Shown: positions 35,870 through 46,885 of the stretch, piece after piece
How the letters are laid out: each line of letters begins with the position of its first letter
How positions within the stretch are numbered: the first letter of the stretch is position 1
Assembly (NCBI RefSeq): GCF_026000375.1
Contig: NZ_AP026708.1
Span: forward strand, 1,180,501 to 1,244,500
Length of the DNA stretch: 64,000 nucleotides
Source of the DNA: Pseudodesulfovibrio portus
GTDB lineage: Bacteria; Desulfobacterota; Desulfovibrionia; Desulfovibrionales; Desulfovibrionaceae
Direction: 5' to 3'
Notes under the pieces: generated by a model
What the model saw: the letters and a program-made list of their open reading frames with translations, nothing else
Told to the model about the DNA's origin: nothing
Databases searched by the model: none
Program-made: the position numbers and the translations under genes

Positions 35870-36997
35870 CTACTTGGAGGCGGCCTCTTTAAGCAGGTCG
35901 TCAACGACAGCCGCACCATTTTTTAATGCCTCATCCCGAAGGTGGGCATACCGCTTGGTCATGCCTGGCGTGCTGTGTGTAAGGAGATTTTGGAGCGTGA
36001 ACAGATCGACCTTGCCGGAACTCGCCAGCATTGAGGCGTAGGCGTGCCGAAGACCATGAAGTGGCCGAAAATCATCCGGCAAGCCCGCCCGCCTTTTAAT
36101 TCGATTAATCGGCCCACGGATGTCCTTTCGCTGCCCCCCACTTGGCCCGGGAAACACAAATGGGCTTCCCCTGCGCTCGTGCTTTTCAAGGAGTTCACGG
36201 GTGCCAGCATTGAGCGGTATCTTCTTCCCCACCCCGCCCTTCGGATCTTCGAGGAAAATAAATCCTCGGTTGAAATCTATGTCAGCCCATTTAAGCTTAA
36301 ACAACTCCCCGCGCCTCATACCAGTGAACAGGGCCATTTTCATCATGCCCACAGCATCAACGTGATGATCTTCATCCATAGCCTTGAGAAGCGCCTTAAG
36401 TTGTTCGTCGGTCAGGTCTTCGGTCTTCTCATTGTCCACATGGGGCATTTCAATATGAAGCTTTGCTGGGGCTGGCATCGAGGTAAGGCCCTTCCGAGCA
36501 CCAAACAGAACTAACCGTTTAAAAAGGGCCAGACACAGTTTTACTGTCTGGGGAGACTTCGACCTCAAGAGACGCAAACGGAATCTATCTACATCGGCTG
36601 TCGTAATTTCATCGGGAGACAGATCGCCGAACTCAGGCTCAAGATGTTTGGTGAACCGGCTCTTATCAGCGACCTCGCCCTTATAGTCCACCCTCTGCTC
36701 TCTGTATTCGTCCCACAGCTTCGACAAAGTCCATCGATTAACCCTGGATGCCCTGACCGCCTCTCGCTGTTCCGAATTTGGCAACACCTCGCCGTCAATT
36801 TTCTTGGCACGTATCCGTGAAGCCTTGGCCTCGGTCATTTTGTTTTGTTTCTGGCGGCCAACCTTCTCCTCGACCATTTTCCCGTCACGGCGATACCGAA
36901 TGTAATAGATCCTCTCAGGCTGACCCGTCACAACATGAGAGCCCATGACATAGAACACGCCAGGATAATCCGTCTTGTATCGTCGTTGCTTGGGCAT
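35870..36997 (-). CDS. Tyrosine recombinase (selC integrase)
   Basis: This 375-residue integrase has an N-terminal arm-binding domain (YYIRYRRDGKMVEEKVGRQ), a SAM-like core-binding domain and a catalytic domain with all hallmarks: Arg in FTGMRRGELFKLKW, HGLRHAYA, and THSTPGMTKRYAHL with the final His and nucleophilic Tyr. The gene is intact and ends 1.1 kb from attR, with its start nearest attR (170 bases away). AAGGAG precedes the ATG. It should recombine selC with the element. Confidence 0.93.
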   Translation of the reverse strand: MPKQRRYKTDYPGVFYVMGSHVVTGQPERIYYIRYRRDGKMVEEKVGRQKQNKMTEAKASRIRAKKIDGEVLPNSEQREAVRASRVNRWTLSKLWDEYREQRVDYKGEVADKSRFTKHLEPEFGDLSPDEITTADVDRFRLRLLRSKSPQTVKLCLALFKRLVLFGARKGLTSMPAPAKLHIEMPHVDNEKTEDLTDEQLKALLKAMDEDHHVDAVGMMKMALFTGMRRGELFKLKWADIDFNRGFIFLEDPKGGVGKKIPLNAGTRELLEKHERRGSPFVFPGPSGGQRKDIRGPINRIKRRAGLPDDFRPLHGLRHAYASMLASSGKVDLFTLQNLLTHSTPGMTKRYAHLRDEALKNGAAVVDDLLKEAASK

Positions 36998-37465: not shown

Positions 37466-39187
37466 ATGATAGCCGAAAACACCCTATATACCCTGCTCAT
37501 CCTGCTGGGAGCCATCCTGGTCGCCCTTGTCGCCGATCTCATCAGACGCCGGAAGGCCGAGGACAGTCTGAAAGACCGGGTCCACATCTTGACCACCCTG
37601 GCCGACAGTATCCCGAGTCCAATCTTCTACAAAGACCGCGAAGGGATATACCAAGGATGCAACACGGCATTTCTGAACATGCTCGGGCGGACCAGAGAAG
37701 AGGTCGTCGGCAAATCGGTCTACGACATCTCCCCCAAGCATCTGGCCGAAGTATACGAGAAGGCGGACAACGACCTGCTCCGCAAGGGCGGCGTCCAGCG
37801 GTACGAAACGCAGGTTAAATTCGCGGACGGGTCCATTCACGAGATGTTCTTCACCAAGAGCGTCTTTCACGACGAAAAAAGCGAAGTGGCAGGCCTTCTG
37901 GGAGTGATGCTCGACATCACGGAACGGAAAAAGGCCGAGGAAAAGCTCCGGCTCGCCCACGAGACGCTTGAGCGGAAGGTCGAGGAACGTACGCACAAAC
38001 TCAAGGAAGCGGAAAAGGAAAGCCGCACCAAGAGCGACTTTCTCAATACGGTCATCAACTCGATCAATCACGGGATCGTGGTCATCGACGCCAAGGACCA
38101 CACCATCAAGCTCGCGAACAAGGCCGCCAGCGGCGGTCGGTCCACCGAGGGAATGCATTGCTTCGAACTGCTCCACAACCGGGGCACCCCCTGCGTTGAG
38201 GACGTTGGCCTGTGCCCCATGCATCAAGTCACCAAAACGGGCGAGCCGTGCACGACCATGCACAACCACACCTCGCCCGACGGGGAGCCGCGCTTCGTCG
38301 AGATACACACCTACCCCGTCTTCGACGAGAACGGGGAAGTTGTTCAGATCATCGACAACATCATGGACGTCACGTCCCGCAGGCTGGCCGAGAAGGCCCT
38401 CATGGACGCCAAGGACCTGGCGGAGTCGACCAACCAGCACATGTCCGAGTTCCTGGACACCGTCTCCCATGAATTGCGCACCCCCATGACATCGGTCCAG
38501 GGCTTCTCCAAACTCATCCAGAAGTCGTTTTGCGACAGGTTCGCGCCCATCACGTCGGAAAACGCCACCCTGCGCAAGGCGGCCGACCGGATCGAGCAGA
38601 ACCTGGCCATCGTCATTTCAGAGAGCGAACGAATGGTCTCGCTGATAAACGACCAGCTCGACCTGTCCAAACTCCAATCCGGCCGCATCGACTGGAAAAT
38701 GACCCGTCTGGCCCCTGCGGAGCTGATCGAACGAACCCTGAAGGCGGTCACTCCGCTCTTCTCGGAAGACGACATCTCCTTGATCTCGGAGGTGGAGGAA
38801 GGGCTGCCCATGCTGACCGGCGACCCCGACCGGCTGATGCAGGTGTTGATAAACCTGATCTCCAATGCCGCGAAGTTCACCCAGGAAGGGACCGTCCGGT
38901 GCAGGGTCGCCCGGGAGGGCGAGGGCGTCCTGTTTGCCGTGAGCGACACAGGAATCGGCATACCCGAAGATCAGATCGACCACATCTTCAACAAGTTCAA
39001 GCAGGTACAGAACGATATCACCGGAAAACCCGCAGGAACGGGACTCGGCCTGCCCATCTCCAAGGAGATCGTCCAGCATCATGGCGGCAGGATATGGGCC
39101 GAAAGCGTCTTCGGCGAAGGCAGCACCTTCTACGTCAGCCTGCCCGCGGAAGAGAATAAGCCTCCGGAAGGCGCGGACGCCCCCTGA
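37466..39187 (+). CDS. PAS-PAS histidine kinase
   Basis: The 573-residue kinase has one N-terminal membrane helix (about 7-26), a PAS domain (about 38-155), a coiled coil, a second PAS (about 190-305) with cysteines at 232, 243 and 250 (HCFELLHNRGTPC... then GLCPMHQ), and a HisKA/HATPase core with His335 in DTVSHELRTP, NLISNAAKF, DTGIGIP and GTGLGLPISKE. No partner response regulator lies next to it. The cysteine pattern resembles that of two kinases downstream of hmc and may serve redox or metal sensing (inference). The gene ends at a strong terminator. Confidence 0.88.
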   Translation: MIAENTLYTLLILLGAILVALVADLIRRRKAEDSLKDRVHILTTLADSIPSPIFYKDREGIYQGCNTAFLNMLGRTREEVVGKSVYDISPKHLAEVYEKADNDLLRKGGVQRYETQVKFADGSIHEMFFTKSVFHDEKSEVAGLLGVMLDITERKKAEEKLRLAHETLERKVEERTHKLKEAEKESRTKSDFLNTVINSINHGIVVIDAKDHTIKLANKAASGGRSTEGMHCFELLHNRGTPCVEDVGLCPMHQVTKTGEPCTTMHNHTSPDGEPRFVEIHTYPVFDENGEVVQIIDNIMDVTSRRLAEKALMDAKDLAESTNQHMSEFLDTVSHELRTPMTSVQGFSKLIQKSFCDRFAPITSENATLRKAADRIEQNLAIVISESERMVSLINDQLDLSKLQSGRIDWKMTRLAPAELIERTLKAVTPLFSEDDISLISEVEEGLPMLTGDPDRLMQVLINLISNAAKFTQEGTVRCRVAREGEGVLFAVSDTGIGIPEDQIDHIFNKFKQVQNDITGKPAGTGLGLPISKEIVQHHGGRIWAESVFGEGSTFYVSLPAEENKPPEGADAP

Positions 39188-39267: not shown

Positions 39268-39822
39268 CTACGGCGTTTTCACATAGACGATGGATTGGGC
39301 GCTCAATTTCTTGATCACCTGCTTGCCCGCCGCATCCGCCTGCATGAGGAGGATTTCCTTTTCCCCAAAGGTCAGGGCGTTGGTCAGGCAGGTTTCCACG
39401 CACACCGGGTCCAGACCGTGGGTGACGCGGTCGTAGCAGAGATTGCACTTGTGGGCGTAATTCTCTTTCTCGTTGAACTGAATGACCTTGTACGGGCATT
39501 TCTCGACACACTCGCCGCAACCGGTACATTTTTCGCGGTCAAAAAGCACGATGCCGGTCTGCACGTCCTTGGTGATGGCCCCTTCTTCGCACCCCTTGGC
39601 GCACGGGGTCTTCTTGCAGTGCTGGCACATGACCACCCACGAGTCTTCCTTGATCTCCGGGAACTTCCCTTCGCTTTTGGACTCCACGCGGAGATAGTAG
39701 GGGATTTCTCCGGGCATATCGTATTCGTGGTCGATCAACCCGTGGTGGTTCCGGCAGGCCACGATGCAGGTCTTGCACCCGATACAGCGATCAAGATCAA
39801 CCATTATGCTGAGCTGTTTCAT
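39268..39822 (-). CDS. Four-cluster ferredoxin subunit of the molybdoenzyme
   Basis: The 184-residue protein has four [4Fe-4S] sites of the DmsB/PsrB/NrfC type: CIGCKTCIVAC, CQHCKKTPCAKGC, CTGCGECVEKC and CNLCYDRVTHG-x-x-x-VC. It carries electrons to or from the catalytic subunit encoded 13 bases upstream. No Tat or other signal is present, which matches the lack of one in the catalytic subunit. It is the last gene of the leftward operon. AAGGAG supports the start; in-frame sequence upstream is not coding. Confidence 0.93.
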   Translation of the reverse strand: MKQLSIMVDLDRCIGCKTCIVACRNHHGLIDHEYDMPGEIPYYLRVESKSEGKFPEIKEDSWVVMCQHCKKTPCAKGCEEGAITKDVQTGIVLFDREKCTGCGECVEKCPYKVIQFNEKENYAHKCNLCYDRVTHGLDPVCVETCLTNALTFGEKEILLMQADAAGKQVIKKLSAQSIVYVKTP

Positions 39823-39835
39823 CTTGTACTCCTTC

Positions 39836-41971
39836 TTATTTGTAGATCCTGACCCGGGTGGTAACGTGGGCTTCACCGCCCCGGAGATCCTGCTCGTCCA
39901 AGGTCGTACCGGCGTCGGAGATGAGCTCGTTGTCGCTCACCCACGAACCGCGACACGCCACCTTGCCCATTGTCTGGCCAAAGCCGTGAATGATGCCCGC
40001 GCAGCCGGGGATGATCTTTTCCGTCAGTTCGACCGGGAGCTTGACCTGACCCGAGTTGGATTCCATGGTCACCACGTCGCCGCTCTTCACGCCGAGCCTT
40101 TCGGCGTCGATGGGGTTGAGCAGGCAGGGGTTGGCGTCCAGGCCCGACACGGGGTCGCGCAGCTGGGCGTTGTTCTGCGACCAGGCGCCGGTGTTGTTCA
40201 GGTAGATGGTGCGGAAGTTGACCAGGACAAAGGGGAACTCGTCCTCGCCCCGGCGGTATTCCAGGGGCAGTTCCGGGCTGGGCCATTCCCGGCCGATATC
40301 CTTGTACATGTTCCACTTCAGCTCGATCTTGCCGGAAGGGGTATTGAATTTGCCCGCGTCCTCGTACTTGCGGAATCCCACGGTCCCGGGGCTCCAGAGA
40401 CCGCCGTTCTCCTGCAGCTTCTTCACGGACATGCCCACACCGGCAAGCTCGATGTCGTAGTAGTCGACGTCGTCCTTGAAGGCGAAGTATTCGGGGAACA
40501 TCCGTTTGCCGAGGTCGATGAACACGCGGTTGGCGTGGCGGGATTCGCCGATGGGCTCCACCACGGGCTGGCACAGGGCGGCGCAGTGGCCGTAGTTGTA
40601 CCACCACGGCATGTACAGCATTTCCCAGCGCTCGAAGTTGGTCTGGTCGGGCAGGACCAGGTCCGCCCACTTCATGGTCTCGGACGGCATGATCTCGGTG
40701 ACCACCAGCAGTTCCAGCTTGTAGTCGCCGTTCTCGTCCTTCATGGTCACGGCCTTGCGCCATTCGCCGGACCCCATCTCGGACAGGGCGGGATTGCACT
40801 CGGAGGCGAAGAACACCTTGAGGGTGTCGTCCTTGATGGCCTGGGCCGCGTACCACGTGGGCTGCAGGAAGAACTTGTAGCTATCGAACTGCGAGCGGTC
40901 CGGACCGGTGCGGTGATAGCCGAGTTCCGTGACGTCCGGTGCCGGAGGGACCGGCTCCACCGGGGCCATGGGCGCGATTTCCGGCAGGGGCTGGCCGCCG
41001 GGGTTGTCCAGGTTGCCGGTGATGACCAGGAAGATGGACCACGCGTGGCCCCAGTCCATGCCGTTGCCGTACATGATGGACTTGAAGGCGTCGATACAGG
41101 CGCTGGGGGCCTCTGCCGCCATCCTGGCCAGCTTGATGATGTCGCCGGCGGGTACGCCGCAGATTTTGCTCATGGCCTCGGGCGTCATATCCTTGAGATG
41201 CGCCTTGAGGCCGTCCATGTCGCCTTCCTGAACCCACTTGTCGCAGAATTCCTTGTCGTAGAGATCGTTGGCGAGCAGATAGTTGGAAACGCCGAGGAAG
41301 AGCGCCGCGTCGCCGCCCGGCTTGATGGGAATCCACCAGTCCGCCTTGGCCGCCTCGGCCCGGAAGATGGGGTCGATGACGATGAGTTTGGCGCCGCGTT
41401 CCTTGGCGTCCAGGATGTGGGACGGCACGCAGGCGTCGTCCAGGCAGCCGAAGGGATGACGGCCGGACAGGATCATCAGGCCGCCCTTGGGAACCGCATA
41501 GTACATGGGCGCGATGTGGTGGTTCGGGAAGCAGCCGAAAGTATGCATGTGGGCCATGATCTTGGCCGAATCGCAATGCGGCAGTCCCGTGGAGATGAAT
41601 CCCCCGCAGGCATTGACGAACCGCCACTTGGGGTCGGTCACGGAGTGCGGGAACATCGAATAGGTGAACTTGTGCGCCTCGCCGCGATCACGCAGCTCGG
41701 TCAGCTTCGTCTCCATGATGTCCATGGCCTCGTCCCAGGTGATGCGCTCGAACTCGCCGCTGCCGCGTTCGCCGACGCGCTTCATGGGATATTTGAGCCG
41801 CTCGTTGGAGTACAGGGAGGTGATGCCGGCCATCCCCTTGACGCAGGCCTTGCCGCGTGCGCGGGGGTTGCCCTTCACTTCCTTGACGACCCCGCCTTCC
41901 ACGCGGGCGAGAATGGCGCATTCAGCCTTGCATTGATAACAAACGGTTGGGATCCACCCATCTCCAGACAT
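39836..41971 (-). CDS. Molybdopterin (bis-MGD) oxidoreductase catalytic subunit
   Basis: This 711-residue protein belongs to the DMSO-reductase superfamily. An N-terminal [4Fe-4S] site (CYQCKAEC...GKACVKG) is followed by FERITWDEAMDIM, LILSGRHPFG, AKLIVIDPIF, DAALFLGVSNYLL and the C-terminal cap (TPSGKIELKWNMYKD, LLNPIDAERLGVKSGDVV). It resembles the thiosulfate/polysulfide-reductase and acetylene-hydratase group rather than nitrate reductases. No Tat signal is seen, so it probably stays in the cytoplasm. It sits between a small membrane protein and a ferredoxin and behind an FNT channel. AAGGAG precedes the chosen ATG. The substrate is not determinable. Confidence 0.88.
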   Translation of the reverse strand: MSGDGWIPTVCYQCKAECAILARVEGGVVKEVKGNPRARGKACVKGMAGITSLYSNERLKYPMKRVGERGSGEFERITWDEAMDIMETKLTELRDRGEAHKFTYSMFPHSVTDPKWRFVNACGGFISTGLPHCDSAKIMAHMHTFGCFPNHHIAPMYYAVPKGGLMILSGRHPFGCLDDACVPSHILDAKERGAKLIVIDPIFRAEAAKADWWIPIKPGGDAALFLGVSNYLLANDLYDKEFCDKWVQEGDMDGLKAHLKDMTPEAMSKICGVPAGDIIKLARMAAEAPSACIDAFKSIMYGNGMDWGHAWSIFLVITGNLDNPGGQPLPEIAPMAPVEPVPPAPDVTELGYHRTGPDRSQFDSYKFFLQPTWYAAQAIKDDTLKVFFASECNPALSEMGSGEWRKAVTMKDENGDYKLELLVVTEIMPSETMKWADLVLPDQTNFERWEMLYMPWWYNYGHCAALCQPVVEPIGESRHANRVFIDLGKRMFPEYFAFKDDVDYYDIELAGVGMSVKKLQENGGLWSPGTVGFRKYEDAGKFNTPSGKIELKWNMYKDIGREWPSPELPLEYRRGEDEFPFVLVNFRTIYLNNTGAWSQNNAQLRDPVSGLDANPCLLNPIDAERLGVKSGDVVTMESNSGQVKLPVELTEKIIPGCAGIIHGFGQTMGKVACRGSWVSDNELISDAGTTLDEQDLRGGEAHVTTRVRIYK

Positions 41972-42152: not shown

Positions 42153-43043
42153 TTATGACGTCGTATCCGACCCGAGGTCGGATGCCCGGTTGCGGTACAG
42201 TTGCTGCAACTTGAGCGGGTCCGCCACCAACTGGAAAACAACGGCCACGAACAGGGTCCCGCCCACGCCGTTGCCCATGACGGTGAAGAGCTGGTTGTGC
42301 GCCCATCCGTATCGACCGAACCCCCAGTGCATGAGGACCGGCTTCACGCTCTCCATGCCGGAGACCGCCGTGAGCCACAGGTCCTGCTGGAAGAGCGGGA
42401 CGGCCAGAAAGCCTATGTTGGCGATGCAGTGCTCGTTCATGCCCGCCACAAAGGCCAGGGGGCCGTAGGCGGCCAGAACGATCTTGCTCAGGTCGTCGTT
42501 GGTTTTCATGAACAGGATGGCTGCGGATTGCAGGGTCCAGGTACAGATGATGCCCATGACGAAAATCTCCATGGCCGTCTCACCCGTCTTGGCCACGCCG
42601 ATGTCATGGGCGCGCATGAGCCACGGCAGGGCGTGGTACCCGCCCCCCTTGCTCATGATCCACATGAAGGCCATGGACCCGGCGAAATTGCCCACATACC
42701 CGACAAACACCCCCCAAACAAAACTGGCCCACGAAATGCGGCTCTGGAATACGCCGACCAGCCCGTAGGCCATGTCCGCCGTCACCAGGGTCATGCCGCT
42801 GAACATGATCAGGACCAGCGAGAACATGAAGACCAGCCCCATGAGCAGGTTGGCCAACCCCGGCGCGAGGTTCTGCGGCACACCGGCCGAGACCGCCAGC
42901 GCCAGCATGGCCCCGAAACAGACAAAGGCTCCCCCGGCAAAGGCCGACAGCAGGAACGCCAGCGGCCGTTCCGCGAGCATGTCCCATTTCTTGGAGCAGA
43001 CGTCGGCAACTCCGAGGATGTGTTCTTCAGCATTGAGAGGCAT
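42153..43043 (-). CDS. Formate/nitrite-family (FNT) channel
   Basis: The 296-residue protein has six membrane helices and FNT signatures: FLLSAFAGGAFVCFGAM, LFTGE-type loop replaced by MFSGMTLVTADMAYGL, FVGYVGNFAGSM and GMNEHCIANIGF (the channel HIS). FNT proteins pass formate, nitrite or hydrosulfide across the membrane. The start MPLNAEEHI follows GGAGAATCT; an in-frame ATG at 43061 is less well placed. As first gene of the operon its substrate is probably that of the molybdoenzyme. Confidence 0.9.
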   Translation of the reverse strand: MPLNAEEHILGVADVCSKKWDMLAERPLAFLLSAFAGGAFVCFGAMLALAVSAGVPQNLAPGLANLLMGLVFMFSLVLIMFSGMTLVTADMAYGLVGVFQSRISWASFVWGVFVGYVGNFAGSMAFMWIMSKGGGYHALPWLMRAHDIGVAKTGETAMEIFVMGIICTWTLQSAAILFMKTNDDLSKIVLAAYGPLAFVAGMNEHCIANIGFLAVPLFQQDLWLTAVSGMESVKPVLMHWGFGRYGWAHNQLFTVMGNGVGGTLFVAVVFQLVADPLKLQQLYRNRASDLGSDTTS

Positions 43044-43077
43044 AGATTCTCCAGGCAACAAATTGAACCGTTTTCAG

Positions 43078-43101
43078 CTGTGCGCCGTGCACTGCGCACA
43101 G
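43078..43101. promoter_or_regulatory. Palindrome upstream of the FNT operon
   Basis: CTGTGCGC and GCGCACAG are perfect 8-base arms around CGTGCACT, 34 bases before the FNT start. A second inverted repeat, GGGCGG-CGATCA-CCGCCC, follows at once. The location fits an operator controlling the FNT-molybdoenzyme operon. Confidence 0.5.
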
Positions 43102-43262
43102 GGCGGCGATCACCGCCCTTGATGACAGGAGCCATGAGGGACCGAAAAAGTTACCCGGAAAAGAATAAAAAAGACGAAGAAAAAGAAAAAACACAACAAC
43201 ACCAACGTGTTCGAGTGGTGCAGATAAACACCGGGGCGTCCGACATCCCCATTCTTCGGCGT

Positions 43263-44663
43263 TTACGGATAGTCGGTGCAGACAAAGGCGTCCAGATCGC
43301 ACGGACCGGGAAGCACGCCGCTGGCAATGGCCAGGTTCATGAACGATTCCATACGTCCCCGGTCAGGCCGCAGATCCTCAAACGTCACCAGCCGCTTTTC
43401 AAGGACCTGCTTCGCGAGTTCGGCGGGGACGCCCGTGTACAGCTCCTGCGTTTCGGCGCAATACGTGACATCGGTGTACAATTTGTCACGGGCCTTGAGC
43501 AGGGCCCGCACGAAGACGGACACCAGATCGCCGTGCACCCGGCAGAAATCCTCCCGCACGGCGACCACGCAACAGGGGTGGCCGGGAATGACGTCTTTCG
43601 AATTGATCAGCAGGTCCCCGCCACCTTCGAGCACGCACTTGGACGTCCATGGCTCGGCGCAGAAAAAGGCGTCGATAAGCTGTGTCTTCAGCGACCGGAT
43701 GGCGTATGAGGGGTGGGTGTCCGCCATGGCGATGTTGTCCCAGAGATTGGGAAAATCAGTGGCCAGCTTGCCGAGCAGGACCCTGTGCGTCGAATAGGGA
43801 CCGGGAACGCCCACGCGCTTGCCCCGCAGTTCCCTGGTCGATGTGGCCAGGGCGCTGCCGTCGTGATGGCCGTCCAGAATGTACTTGAGCGGTGTACCGG
43901 AAAGGCACAGCTGCATGGCGAGCGGCGCCATGATGAACGCGGCATCGATGGTCTTCGACGACAAGGCTTCGGCCAAGGCCTTCCACGACAGGAACCGCTT
44001 CATCCGGATACCGGAGTTGCGCCCTTGGTGCATCCGATGGGCGACCATGCCGAGGAGGTGGTCGGAAATCGAAAGATAGCCGACGCGTATGGCGGGCGAA
44101 CCGAGCTCCGGGCCGAGCAGCTCCGAGAGCTGGGACTGGGCGTCATGCAGCCGCTTCCGCACGGTCCCCTTCCTCAGGGAGAGGATGTCCGCTATCTCCG
44201 AAACCGAGTACCCGGATTCGTAATACAGGACCGTGGCGTCCTGCAGCGGCAGGGAAAGTTGTTGGAAGGCGTTCCGGGCGGCGGCCCTCACGCACGACCA
44301 TTCATACTGCTTCGCCGGGTCGGCGGACCTGGGAGCCAACGGCTCGACACACTCGAGGGAATCCAGCGACGTTTCCCGCCCCCGCTTCCGCAAAGTCCGG
44401 TAGCATTGGGAATCCACGATGGTCCTGAACCAGACCGGAAAGCTCTTTATGTCCCGCAACTGCTCCAATCGGGCAAAGGCAACGAGCAACGACTCCTGCA
44501 CTGCGTCCTGGGCCGCATCCCGCGACTTGAGAATCCGTTCGGCGCGAACGATCATCCCCGGGGTCAACTCGGCAACCACGCGGCTGAAATCATGGGAATG
44601 AGCCCAACCGCCGGGTGCGCGCTCTTTCCCGCCGAACTGATCGGAATCTTTGTAATAGGCCAT
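43263..44663 (-). CDS. ECF-type sigma factor fused to an NrtA/NMT1-like ligand-binding domain
   Basis: The 466-residue protein begins with sigma region 2 (about 25-95: SRDAAQDAVQESLLVAFARLEQLRD, FPVWFRTIVDSQCYRTLRK) and region 4 (about 135-182: LSLPLQDATVLYYESGYSVSE, IADILSLRKGTVRKRLHDAQ). From about 190 to 445 it has a periplasmic-binding-protein fold of the NrtA/SsuA/NMT1 type: IRVGYLSISDHLLGMVAHR, DAAFIMAPLAMQLCLSG, LRGKRVGVPGPYSTHRVLL and DAFFCAEPWTSKCVLEGGG, the last matching the EPW-containing strand of nitrate-binding proteins. No signal peptide exists, so the domain is cytoplasmic. It lies directly upstream of the FNT-molybdoenzyme operon in the same direction, its probable target. 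I know of no described sigma of this type. Confidence 0.85.
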   Translation of the reverse strand: MAYYKDSDQFGGKERAPGGWAHSHDFSRVVAELTPGMIVRAERILKSRDAAQDAVQESLLVAFARLEQLRDIKSFPVWFRTIVDSQCYRTLRKRGRETSLDSLECVEPLAPRSADPAKQYEWSCVRAAARNAFQQLSLPLQDATVLYYESGYSVSEIADILSLRKGTVRKRLHDAQSQLSELLGPELGSPAIRVGYLSISDHLLGMVAHRMHQGRNSGIRMKRFLSWKALAEALSSKTIDAAFIMAPLAMQLCLSGTPLKYILDGHHDGSALATSTRELRGKRVGVPGPYSTHRVLLGKLATDFPNLWDNIAMADTHPSYAIRSLKTQLIDAFFCAEPWTSKCVLEGGGDLLINSKDVIPGHPCCVVAVREDFCRVHGDLVSVFVRALLKARDKLYTDVTYCAETQELYTGVPAELAKQVLEKRLVTFEDLRPDRGRMESFMNLAIASGVLPGPCDLDAFVCTDYP

Positions 44664-45007: not shown

Positions 45008-46885
45008 ATGATCTTCACGTTGACCGCCATACGCACCTGCCTTCTTATGCTGACTCTGGCAGCGCTCCTGCTCGTCGGGAAAAACCCTAATGTACGAAGG
45101 GGTACGGGATGGGGATTCGTCACCCTCGGGTTCGGCATCGTCGCCCTAGGCAGCATGTTGCAGTTGGGGGCTCACGCACCGTTTCTGCAAAGCTACACCG
45201 TATTCGGCGACCCTGACACCAACAAGATCATCGCTGAAATTTTCGGCTTTTACCTGGGCATCTGCTTCGTCTTCATCGGCCTGTGGAAACTGGGCCCGAT
45301 CCTGTACAAATTTTTTATTTCAGAAAAAAAACTGAGCGAAAGCGAACGCAATTTCCAGACAATCATCGACACCACGATTGAAGGTCTCGTTATCATCAAG
45401 GATGGATGCATCGTTTTTGCCAACCCGAGCCTGGAAAAGATGTTCGGCGTCAGCCCCGGCGAACTGATCGGCGCAAGGGCCATGGATTTCATCGTCAAAG
45501 AGGATCATGACAGGGTGTACTCCCGGCGGGACGACATTATCGCCCACAAGGACGGGAAAAACATTTCGGAATACCGGCTGCTCAATACAAACGGTGAAAT
45601 CCGTTCGGCCCTGATATCCTCCCAGTACATCAACTGGAAGGGAGAGGACGCATTCCTGAGCGTCATTTCCGACATTACCGAGCTCAAACAGGTCGAGGAA
45701 AGTCTCTCGGCCATAGCCAACACGGCTGCGGAAGCCATCGGCATCTTCCAGGACGAATACCTGGTCTACTGCAACCCGGCCATGATCACCACCTTCGGCT
45801 ATACTTTCGCGGAGTTGCAAAACAAGCCCTTCCACCAATTCGTCCATCCCGACGACCGGGCCATGCTCTACGAGCGCTACAACGCCCGACAGGCCGGGGA
45901 GGAGGTGCCGGCGCAGTATGATTACCGGCTCATCGGCAAGAACGGCGAGACCGTATGGGTCATGATCAGCGCAGGGATCACCCGGTGGAAAGGCAGGATC
46001 GCCACGGTCACGATCCTGACCAATGTCACGGACCGCAAAAAGGCGGAAGAGGCGGTTCGCCTGGCCAAGGAAGACCTGGAAATCCGGGTCGAGGAAAGGA
46101 CCAGGGACCTGCGGGTGATCAACGACCAGCTCATCGCCATCAGCAATCAGAAATCGGCCTTCGTGTCCGCCGCCTCTCACGAGCTGCGGACCCCGCTCGC
46201 GTCGATTCTCGGATTTTCCGCCCTGGTCCGGAAAATCCTGGACAAACATGTCGCCCCGACCGTCAACGACCCGGCCCTGGAAGAAAAGATCGGGGTGGCC
46301 CTGGAGAACCTGGACATCATCAAACTGGAGGGCGACCGGCTGACGCGCCTCCTCGACGACATGCTCGACGTCAGCAAGATCGAGGCGGGCCAGGCGGACT
46401 GGAGAGACAAGCCGCTTTCGGTCCGGTCCATCGTGGACGACGCACTGGCCGTGTCCCGCATCAAGCTGGATGCCAAGCCGAAAGTCACGCTGAAGGCACA
46501 ATCCGAGGATCCTTCGCTCCGCATTCTTGCGGACCCGGACCGCATCATGCAGGTCGTCACCAACCTGCTGGACAACGCCATCAAATTCACTGAACAGGGC
46601 GAGATCGTCATCTCGACCCGACTGGCGCGAAAAGACGTCCTGGAGTTTCGGATAACGGATACGGGGACCGGAATGACGGAAAGGGAACGGGGATTGGTTT
46701 TCCAGAAATACTATCAGGCCGAATCACCTTCCAAAGGCATCTCCAAAGCGCCCAAGGGAACCGGCCTCGGGCTGGCCATCTGCAAGGAGATCATCGAGCA
46801 TTATCAGGGCATGATCGGCGTGGAGCCCGGCCCGGACGGAGTCGGCTCCAGCTTCTACTTCCGGCTGCCGCTGCTCAAGGATTAG
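45008..46885 (+). CDS. Membrane PAS-PAS histidine kinase
   Basis: The 625-residue kinase has about three N-terminal membrane helices (about 2-22, 35-52, 75-97) with short loops, two PAS domains (about 115-230 and 235-350; DGCIVFANPSLEKMFGVSPGEL and DEYLVYCNPAMITTFGYTFAEL), a coiled coil and a HisKA/HATPase core (SAASHELRTPLASILGF, NLLDNAIKF, DTGTGMT, GTGLGLAICKE). No adjacent regulator gene. The PAS domains lack the cysteine triad of the other kinases here. Confidence 0.88.
   Translation: MIFTLTAIRTCLLMLTLAALLLVGKNPNVRRGTGWGFVTLGFGIVALGSMLQLGAHAPFLQSYTVFGDPDTNKIIAEIFGFYLGICFVFIGLWKLGPILYKFFISEKKLSESERNFQTIIDTTIEGLVIIKDGCIVFANPSLEKMFGVSPGELIGARAMDFIVKEDHDRVYSRRDDIIAHKDGKNISEYRLLNTNGEIRSALISSQYINWKGEDAFLSVISDITELKQVEESLSAIANTAAEAIGIFQDEYLVYCNPAMITTFGYTFAELQNKPFHQFVHPDDRAMLYERYNARQAGEEVPAQYDYRLIGKNGETVWVMISAGITRWKGRIATVTILTNVTDRKKAEEAVRLAKEDLEIRVEERTRDLRVINDQLIAISNQKSAFVSAASHELRTPLASILGFSALVRKILDKHVAPTVNDPALEEKIGVALENLDIIKLEGDRLTRLLDDMLDVSKIEAGQADWRDKPLSVRSIVDDALAVSRIKLDAKPKVTLKAQSEDPSLRILADPDRIMQVVTNLLDNAIKFTEQGEIVISTRLARKDVLEFRITDTGTGMTERERGLVFQKYYQAESPSKGISKAPKGTGLGLAICKEIIEHYQGMIGVEPGPDGVGSSFYFRLPLLKD

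Follow-up and report, generated by a model that had tools for sequence, protein, structure and literature searches.

ECF sigma factors usually listen through a partner protein. In Pseudodesulfovibrio portus, one open reading frame joins an ECF sigma factor to an NMT1-like binding-protein domain, which raises the question of what this sigma factor controls and to what it responds. We followed up an earlier note on this locus, which lies in a window (the whole stretch of DNA that was analysed) of 64,000 nucleotides. The features discussed below are collected in Table 1.

Table 1. Features of the fusion gene and the neighbouring operon, with positions in the window
Feature	Position	Strand	Details and basis
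Sigma-NMT1_2 fusion gene	43263..44663	-	466 aa, single frame, ATG at 44663; ORF list and homologs
ECF sigma region 2	44376..44543	-	residues 41-96; Pfam PF04542 Sigma70_r2, 6.5e-8
ECF sigma region 4	44139..44279	-	residues 129-175; Pfam PF08281 Sigma70_r4_2, 3.2e-6
NMT1-like binding-protein domain	43266..44099	-	residues 189-466; Pfam PF13379 NMT1_2 at 189-395, 2.8e-22
Predicted ECF promoter of the operon	43128..43155	-	GGTAACTTTTTC-N10-GGCTCC; conserved place in host-family loci
FNT (formate/nitrite/hydrosulfide-type) transporter	42153..43043	-	Pfam PF01226, 8.1e-43
Molybdopterin oxidoreductase, cytoplasmic, PsrA/PhsA-like	39836..41971	-	711 aa, Cys metal ligand, no TAT signal
4Fe-4S electron-transfer subunit	39268..39822	-	184 aa; ORF, Pfam of the ortholog in L034, synteny

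The fusion gene and its relatives

The earlier note had given the ends of the gene exactly and without a strand; the gene lies on the minus strand and is present as a single copy in the P. portus genome. A Pfam profile search agreed with the reading that ECF regions 2 and 4 are followed in one frame by an NMT1-like domain, all three matches (Sigma70_r2, Sigma70_r4_2 and NMT1_2) exceeding the Pfam gathering cut-offs. NCBIfam placed the N-terminal part of the protein in the ECF superfamily (sigma70-ECF, 5.4e-16), in keeping with the presence of regions 2 and 4 and the absence of regions 1 and 3. NCBIfam also gave a SaoX lead (3.9e-11), on which a literature search returned no useful paper. The EPW strand that the note had seen was found as FFCAEPW at residues 333-339. 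The protein begins with the sigma domain and has no signal peptide, as the note had said, and no membrane helix was found either, none of the 22 homologs having a 19-residue stretch above KD 1.75.

Single-ORF homologs of near full length, with 36-66% identity, were found in 25 of the 288 genomes of the host family. The fusion also occurs in seven genomes of a second family of the same order, where six copies are uninterrupted and the seventh runs off the end of its contig. Among 395 genomes drawn evenly from the phylum, full-length fusions were seen in the host family alone. Pseudodesulfovibrio, Desulfovibrio and Nitratidesulfovibrio are the named relatives that carry it. All 22 members of the homolog alignment match both NMT1_2 and Sigma70_r2, and the fused NMT1_2 domains form one clade in the tree (support 100), as would be expected if the fusion arose once. 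A frameshift or assembly artefact joining two genes near position 44100, a possibility that the note had raised against its own claim, has practically no chance of being the explanation and is ruled out by homologs that keep one uninterrupted frame in more than 30 separate genomes and by the support for the fused-domain clade. The fusion is thus real, in a group of sulfate-reducing bacteria, and its family is, as far as searched, confined to one order.

The adjacent operon and its predicted promoter

The fusion gene is followed by genes for an FNT transporter, a molybdoenzyme and a 4Fe-4S protein. The FNT gene starts at a TTG at 43061 in the ORF list, and the ATG at 43043 is the likelier start. 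At all 25 host-family loci, genes behind the fusion on the same strand encode a molybdoenzyme (about 711 aa) and a 4Fe-4S protein (about 184 aa). Each of these loci has exactly one transporter, which is an FNT in 12 and an HPP (assigned by Pfam PF04982) in 13, and never both. A search in other genomes for the same fusion beside FNT or molybdenum genes, as suggested in the note, was thus successful. The molybdoenzyme was found in 26 of the 288 host-family genomes, and 25 of these are all the genomes with the fusion (Fisher p of about 4e-35, a value inflated by shared ancestry). Because the fusion family is, as far as searched, confined to one order, this co-occurrence partly reflects common descent.

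The best solved relative of the molybdoenzyme is PsrA of T. thermophilus (3.4e-63), and Cys 137 of the molybdoenzyme aligns with a PsrA Cys in the metal-ligand region. Formate dehydrogenases have His after the metal-ligand Cys. The molybdoenzyme has Asp at this position, and PsrA is its best match by far, so that formate dehydrogenase was rejected as its identity. FNT and HPP are unrelated families that replace each other, suggesting that one small anion is handled. FNT proteins carry nitrite, and because they also carry formate and hydrosulfide, nitrite, the known substrate common to FNT and HPP, is a lead to the candidate anion and not an identification. For HPP, nitrite transport is taken from Maeda 2014, cited in PMC7438415. 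Some Pseudodesulfovibrio-type loci have, immediately after the operon, a gene for an FmdE plus molybdopterin-binding-domain protein (e.g., L044:3200-4858:-), which may help to supply or insert the cofactor.

The gap between the fusion and the operon contains the motif GG[GT]AAC[TC]TTTT followed at constant spacing by [GC]CTCT, whichever gene follows the fusion. The motif is present in this gap in 24 of 24 aligned host-family loci, among which AAC, a single T in the tract and the second element's TC do not vary. The strict pattern occurs in 19 of the 24 gap sequences, compared with a mean of 0.5 (maximum 3) in Markov shuffles; it was found on the opposite strand in none of the 24. With its GAAC-like first element, short second element and fixed spacing, the motif fits an ECF-type promoter. 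The seven second-family loci were fetched after the motif had been defined and are thus out-of-sample. The operon (in one case as far as HPP, where the contig ends) and GAAC[CT]TTTT are present at all seven; the second element keeps its position or is displaced by about two bases. In a further record, L040, the first element is accompanied by a weak second one.

A pattern search of 12 whole genomes revealed the fusion-operon gap as the only clear promoter site, the predicted promoter at 43128..43155 being the best site in its genome. Other sites in these genomes had two mismatches at best and were no commoner than those of a reversed-pattern control, so that a large regulon was rejected. Autoregulation of the fusion gene was rejected as well, the strict pattern being absent upstream of it at all 24 loci. 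The strict pattern was also absent before four copies of the operon without the fusion, one of which is a second copy in the genome G228. This second copy of the molybdoenzyme and 4Fe-4S genes (L116:7835-11803) has no fusion, transporter or promoter motif, and lies directly behind transposase-like genes. The gap motif is the kind of trace to be expected of an ECF sigma factor that is dedicated to a single target.

The note had proposed that the target is the operon directly downstream, and the invariant synteny, the co-occurrence and the conserved ECF-type promoter in the gap strongly support this. Related genomes do share neighbours by descent, and the sigma factor could in principle drive other genes while something else uses the operon promoter, the linkage being coincidental or due to shared transfer. 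This is quite improbable: the downstream unit is conserved whereas the upstream neighbours are not, the motif tracks the presence of the fusion even where one genome has two copies of the operon, and the genome scan gave no clear second target. Control of the adjacent operon by the fusion sigma factor is thus well supported, and the sequences suggest that the sigma factor itself recognises the promoter.

In the leader behind the promoter lies an inverted repeat, CTGTGCGC-AGTGCACG-GCGCACAG (window 43078-43101), and a similar core, GCGCAGTGCAC, is found in the leaders of the Pseudodesulfovibrio-type loci L031, L032, L041, L042 and L044. The repeat is a possible operator or leader element. A search of the region in Rfam gave no known RNA element, and the leader folds no better than shuffled sequences (z -0.8). 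PAS-type sensor histidine kinase ORFs flank the operon in the window (45008-46885 and 37466-39187, both on the plus strand) and are not conserved at other fusion loci. A phage-type (tyrosine) integrase-like ORF (35870-36997, minus strand) lies near the downstream end of the operon region.

Binding domain, ligand and gating

A model of the protein was computed with AlphaFold2 from the window protein and 10 homologs (mean pLDDT 76, pTM 0.62). A Foldseek search against the PDB using this model revealed 3UN6 from S. aureus as the first match, with a target TM-score of 0.83, followed in order by TauA, SsuA, the CmpC regulatory domain and NrtA. The matches indicate that the C-terminal part of the fusion is, as modelled, a complete type-2 binding-protein fold, in agreement with the profile match and with the note's description of a complete binding-protein fold. 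3UN6 is an importer protein, and its entry title says that zinc is bound. NrtC/CmpC, TauA and SsuA score below 3UN6 in sequence comparison with the domain as well. Nitrate or sulfonate, after which the note had named the domain, is not supported as the ligand: the domain is closest to 3UN6 and to CO-dehydrogenase-linked substrate-binding proteins with a His/Cys-rich signature, not to NrtA or SsuA, so that "nitrate/sulfonate" is a family label only.

Within the fusion protein, conservation is highest in the binding domain (mean pairwise identity 51%, vs 41% in the sigma part); this domain has 42 of the 52 residues that are invariant, and its presumed pocket residues are kept. Invariant in it are D201 and H202, D264, H266 and H267, S291, T292 and H293, C335, P338 and W339, H362, and C364 and C365. 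The fused domain and many exported relatives have in common a signature of DH, SxH, EP and HxCC. The closest exported relatives resemble the NitT/TauT importers linked to clade B Ni-CODHs, which are related to 3UN6 and have been proposed to carry metals (Inoue et al. 2019, PMC6344411), an association repeated in PMC13056359; some of these relatives adjoin CO-dehydrogenase genes. Two loci, L094:9001-11924 and L101:9369-12375, agree with the clade B Ni-CODH clusters of PMC6344411: each has a gene for an exported NMT1_2 protein, genes for permease and ATPase, and an adjacent Prismane/CO-dehydrogenase-family gene. No ABC permease or ATPase gene was found among the conserved neighbours of the fusion, which therefore does not have the setting of an exported binding protein.

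We consider it probable that the fusion acts as a one-component ECF sigma factor, gated by a ligand with neither an anti-sigma factor nor a kinase, and that it serves one operon alone. The NMT1_2 domain would bind a small ligand in the cytoplasm, most likely a substrate, product or metal-anion complex handled by the adjacent transporter and molybdoenzyme. Binding would change the packing of the domain on sigma regions 2 and 4, and the changed packing would allow the sigma factor to associate with RNA polymerase, or would prevent this if control is of the opposite sign. The holoenzyme would start transcription at GG[GT]AAC[TC]TTTT...CTCT just behind the sigma gene and yield the FNT (elsewhere HPP) transporter, the molybdoenzyme and the 4Fe-4S subunit, while the fusion gene itself would be made from another promoter. 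As the note had proposed, no anti-sigma factor appears to be involved: no upstream neighbour of the fusion is conserved across genera, and an anti-sigma partner was rejected for this reason. No partner gene other than those of the operon is conserved beside the fusion across the examined loci. As the motif is also missing upstream of the fusion, the simplest reading is that the on-board domain gates the sigma factor by a cytoplasmic ligand. Ligand binding and allosteric gating, and with them the direct control by a ligand that the note had proposed, are a likely inference.

The leads to the ligand point in two directions. FNT and HPP point to an anion, whereas the His/Cys-rich relatives have been proposed to bind metals; nitrite, a related anion, a metal and a metal-anion complex are the candidates. 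A metal-gated sigma factor, whose His/Cys-rich domain would sense Zn, Ni or another metal in the manner of CorE and OrbS with a different fold, is a variant of the ligand-gated explanation that differs in the ligand. The zinc-bound 3UN6 as best match in both fold and sequence, the invariant His and Cys residues and the metal importers proposed in PMC6344411 all speak for a metal; however, the operon has an FNT or HPP anion transporter and no metal transporter, and C335, D201-H202 and H362 are not kept in 3UN6. We regard metal gating as possible, with a clearly smaller chance than the ligand-gated explanation as a whole. The NMT1_2 domain could also be structural or bind a protein partner. Control by a partner with no ligand bound, as proposed for the TPR extensions of ECF42, has a precedent in that some extended ECFs work so (PMC8999054), but it seems unlikely here, because the pocket signature is kept across the family and in exported relatives and the loci offer no conserved partner gene outside the operon.

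Comparison with known systems

Sensor-bearing ECF sigma factors without an anti-sigma factor are an accepted mechanism; ECF41 and CorE-type factors carry C-terminal sensors (PMC8999054), and OrbS has an iron-sensing C-terminus (PMC9023288). The fusion resembles them in having sigma regions 2 and 4, then a conserved, folded domain of presumed sensory or regulatory role, with no anti-sigma gene beside it. It differs in its extension, which comprises about 275 residues with a complete type-2 binding-protein fold (NMT1_2, neither SnoaL-like nor Cys-rich) and is unrelated to the SnoaL, Cys-rich, TPR and WD40 extensions named in PMC8999054. No sensor-bearing ECF sigma factor with a type-2 binding-protein fold was found: nothing relevant to a sigma-NMT1 or sigma-SBP fusion came up in the literature searched, which did not include the main ECF classification paper. 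With somewhat better than even confidence, we suggest that this is the first one-component sigma factor on which a small ligand acts directly, by binding to a complete type-2 binding-protein fold in the cytoplasm, and that it serves a single promoter, from which an anion transporter and a cytoplasmic molybdoenzyme with an uncharacterised substrate are expressed.

The C-terminal domain of NrtC/CmpC, from the cyanobacterial nitrate and bicarbonate importers, is likewise a cytosolic NrtA/NMT1-like domain with a regulatory role on a module that is not a binding protein. However, it sits on an ABC ATPase and acts on transport, and its sequence is more distant from the fused domain than that of 3UN6. 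The closest sequences and folds, 3UN6 and the NitT/TauT binding proteins of clade B Ni-CODH loci, many with the same DH, SxH, EP and HxCC elements, are by contrast exported transport proteins with a signal peptide or anchor and no sigma domain.

Here the sensor is a recognisable ligand-binding fold within the sigma factor chain, and a single promoter is predicted for a single operon, so that the route from ligand to transcript is open to tests with purified components. The fusion also gives access to two wider matters: the ligand of a larger binding-domain subfamily, to which the CO-dehydrogenase-linked importers and CheW fusions belong, and the substrate of a cytoplasmic molybdoenzyme that is conserved in sulfate-reducing bacteria. 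The REC-NMT1_2-CheW proteins of Desulfobacterota share with the sigma fusion a cytosolic NMT1_2 domain within a signalling protein, but they carry chemotaxis-type receiver and CheW modules and form a separate clade in the tree. They are encoded as one chain, often near chemotaxis genes (L091:4129-6066:+, L103:8388-10343:+ and L097:10320-12272:-).
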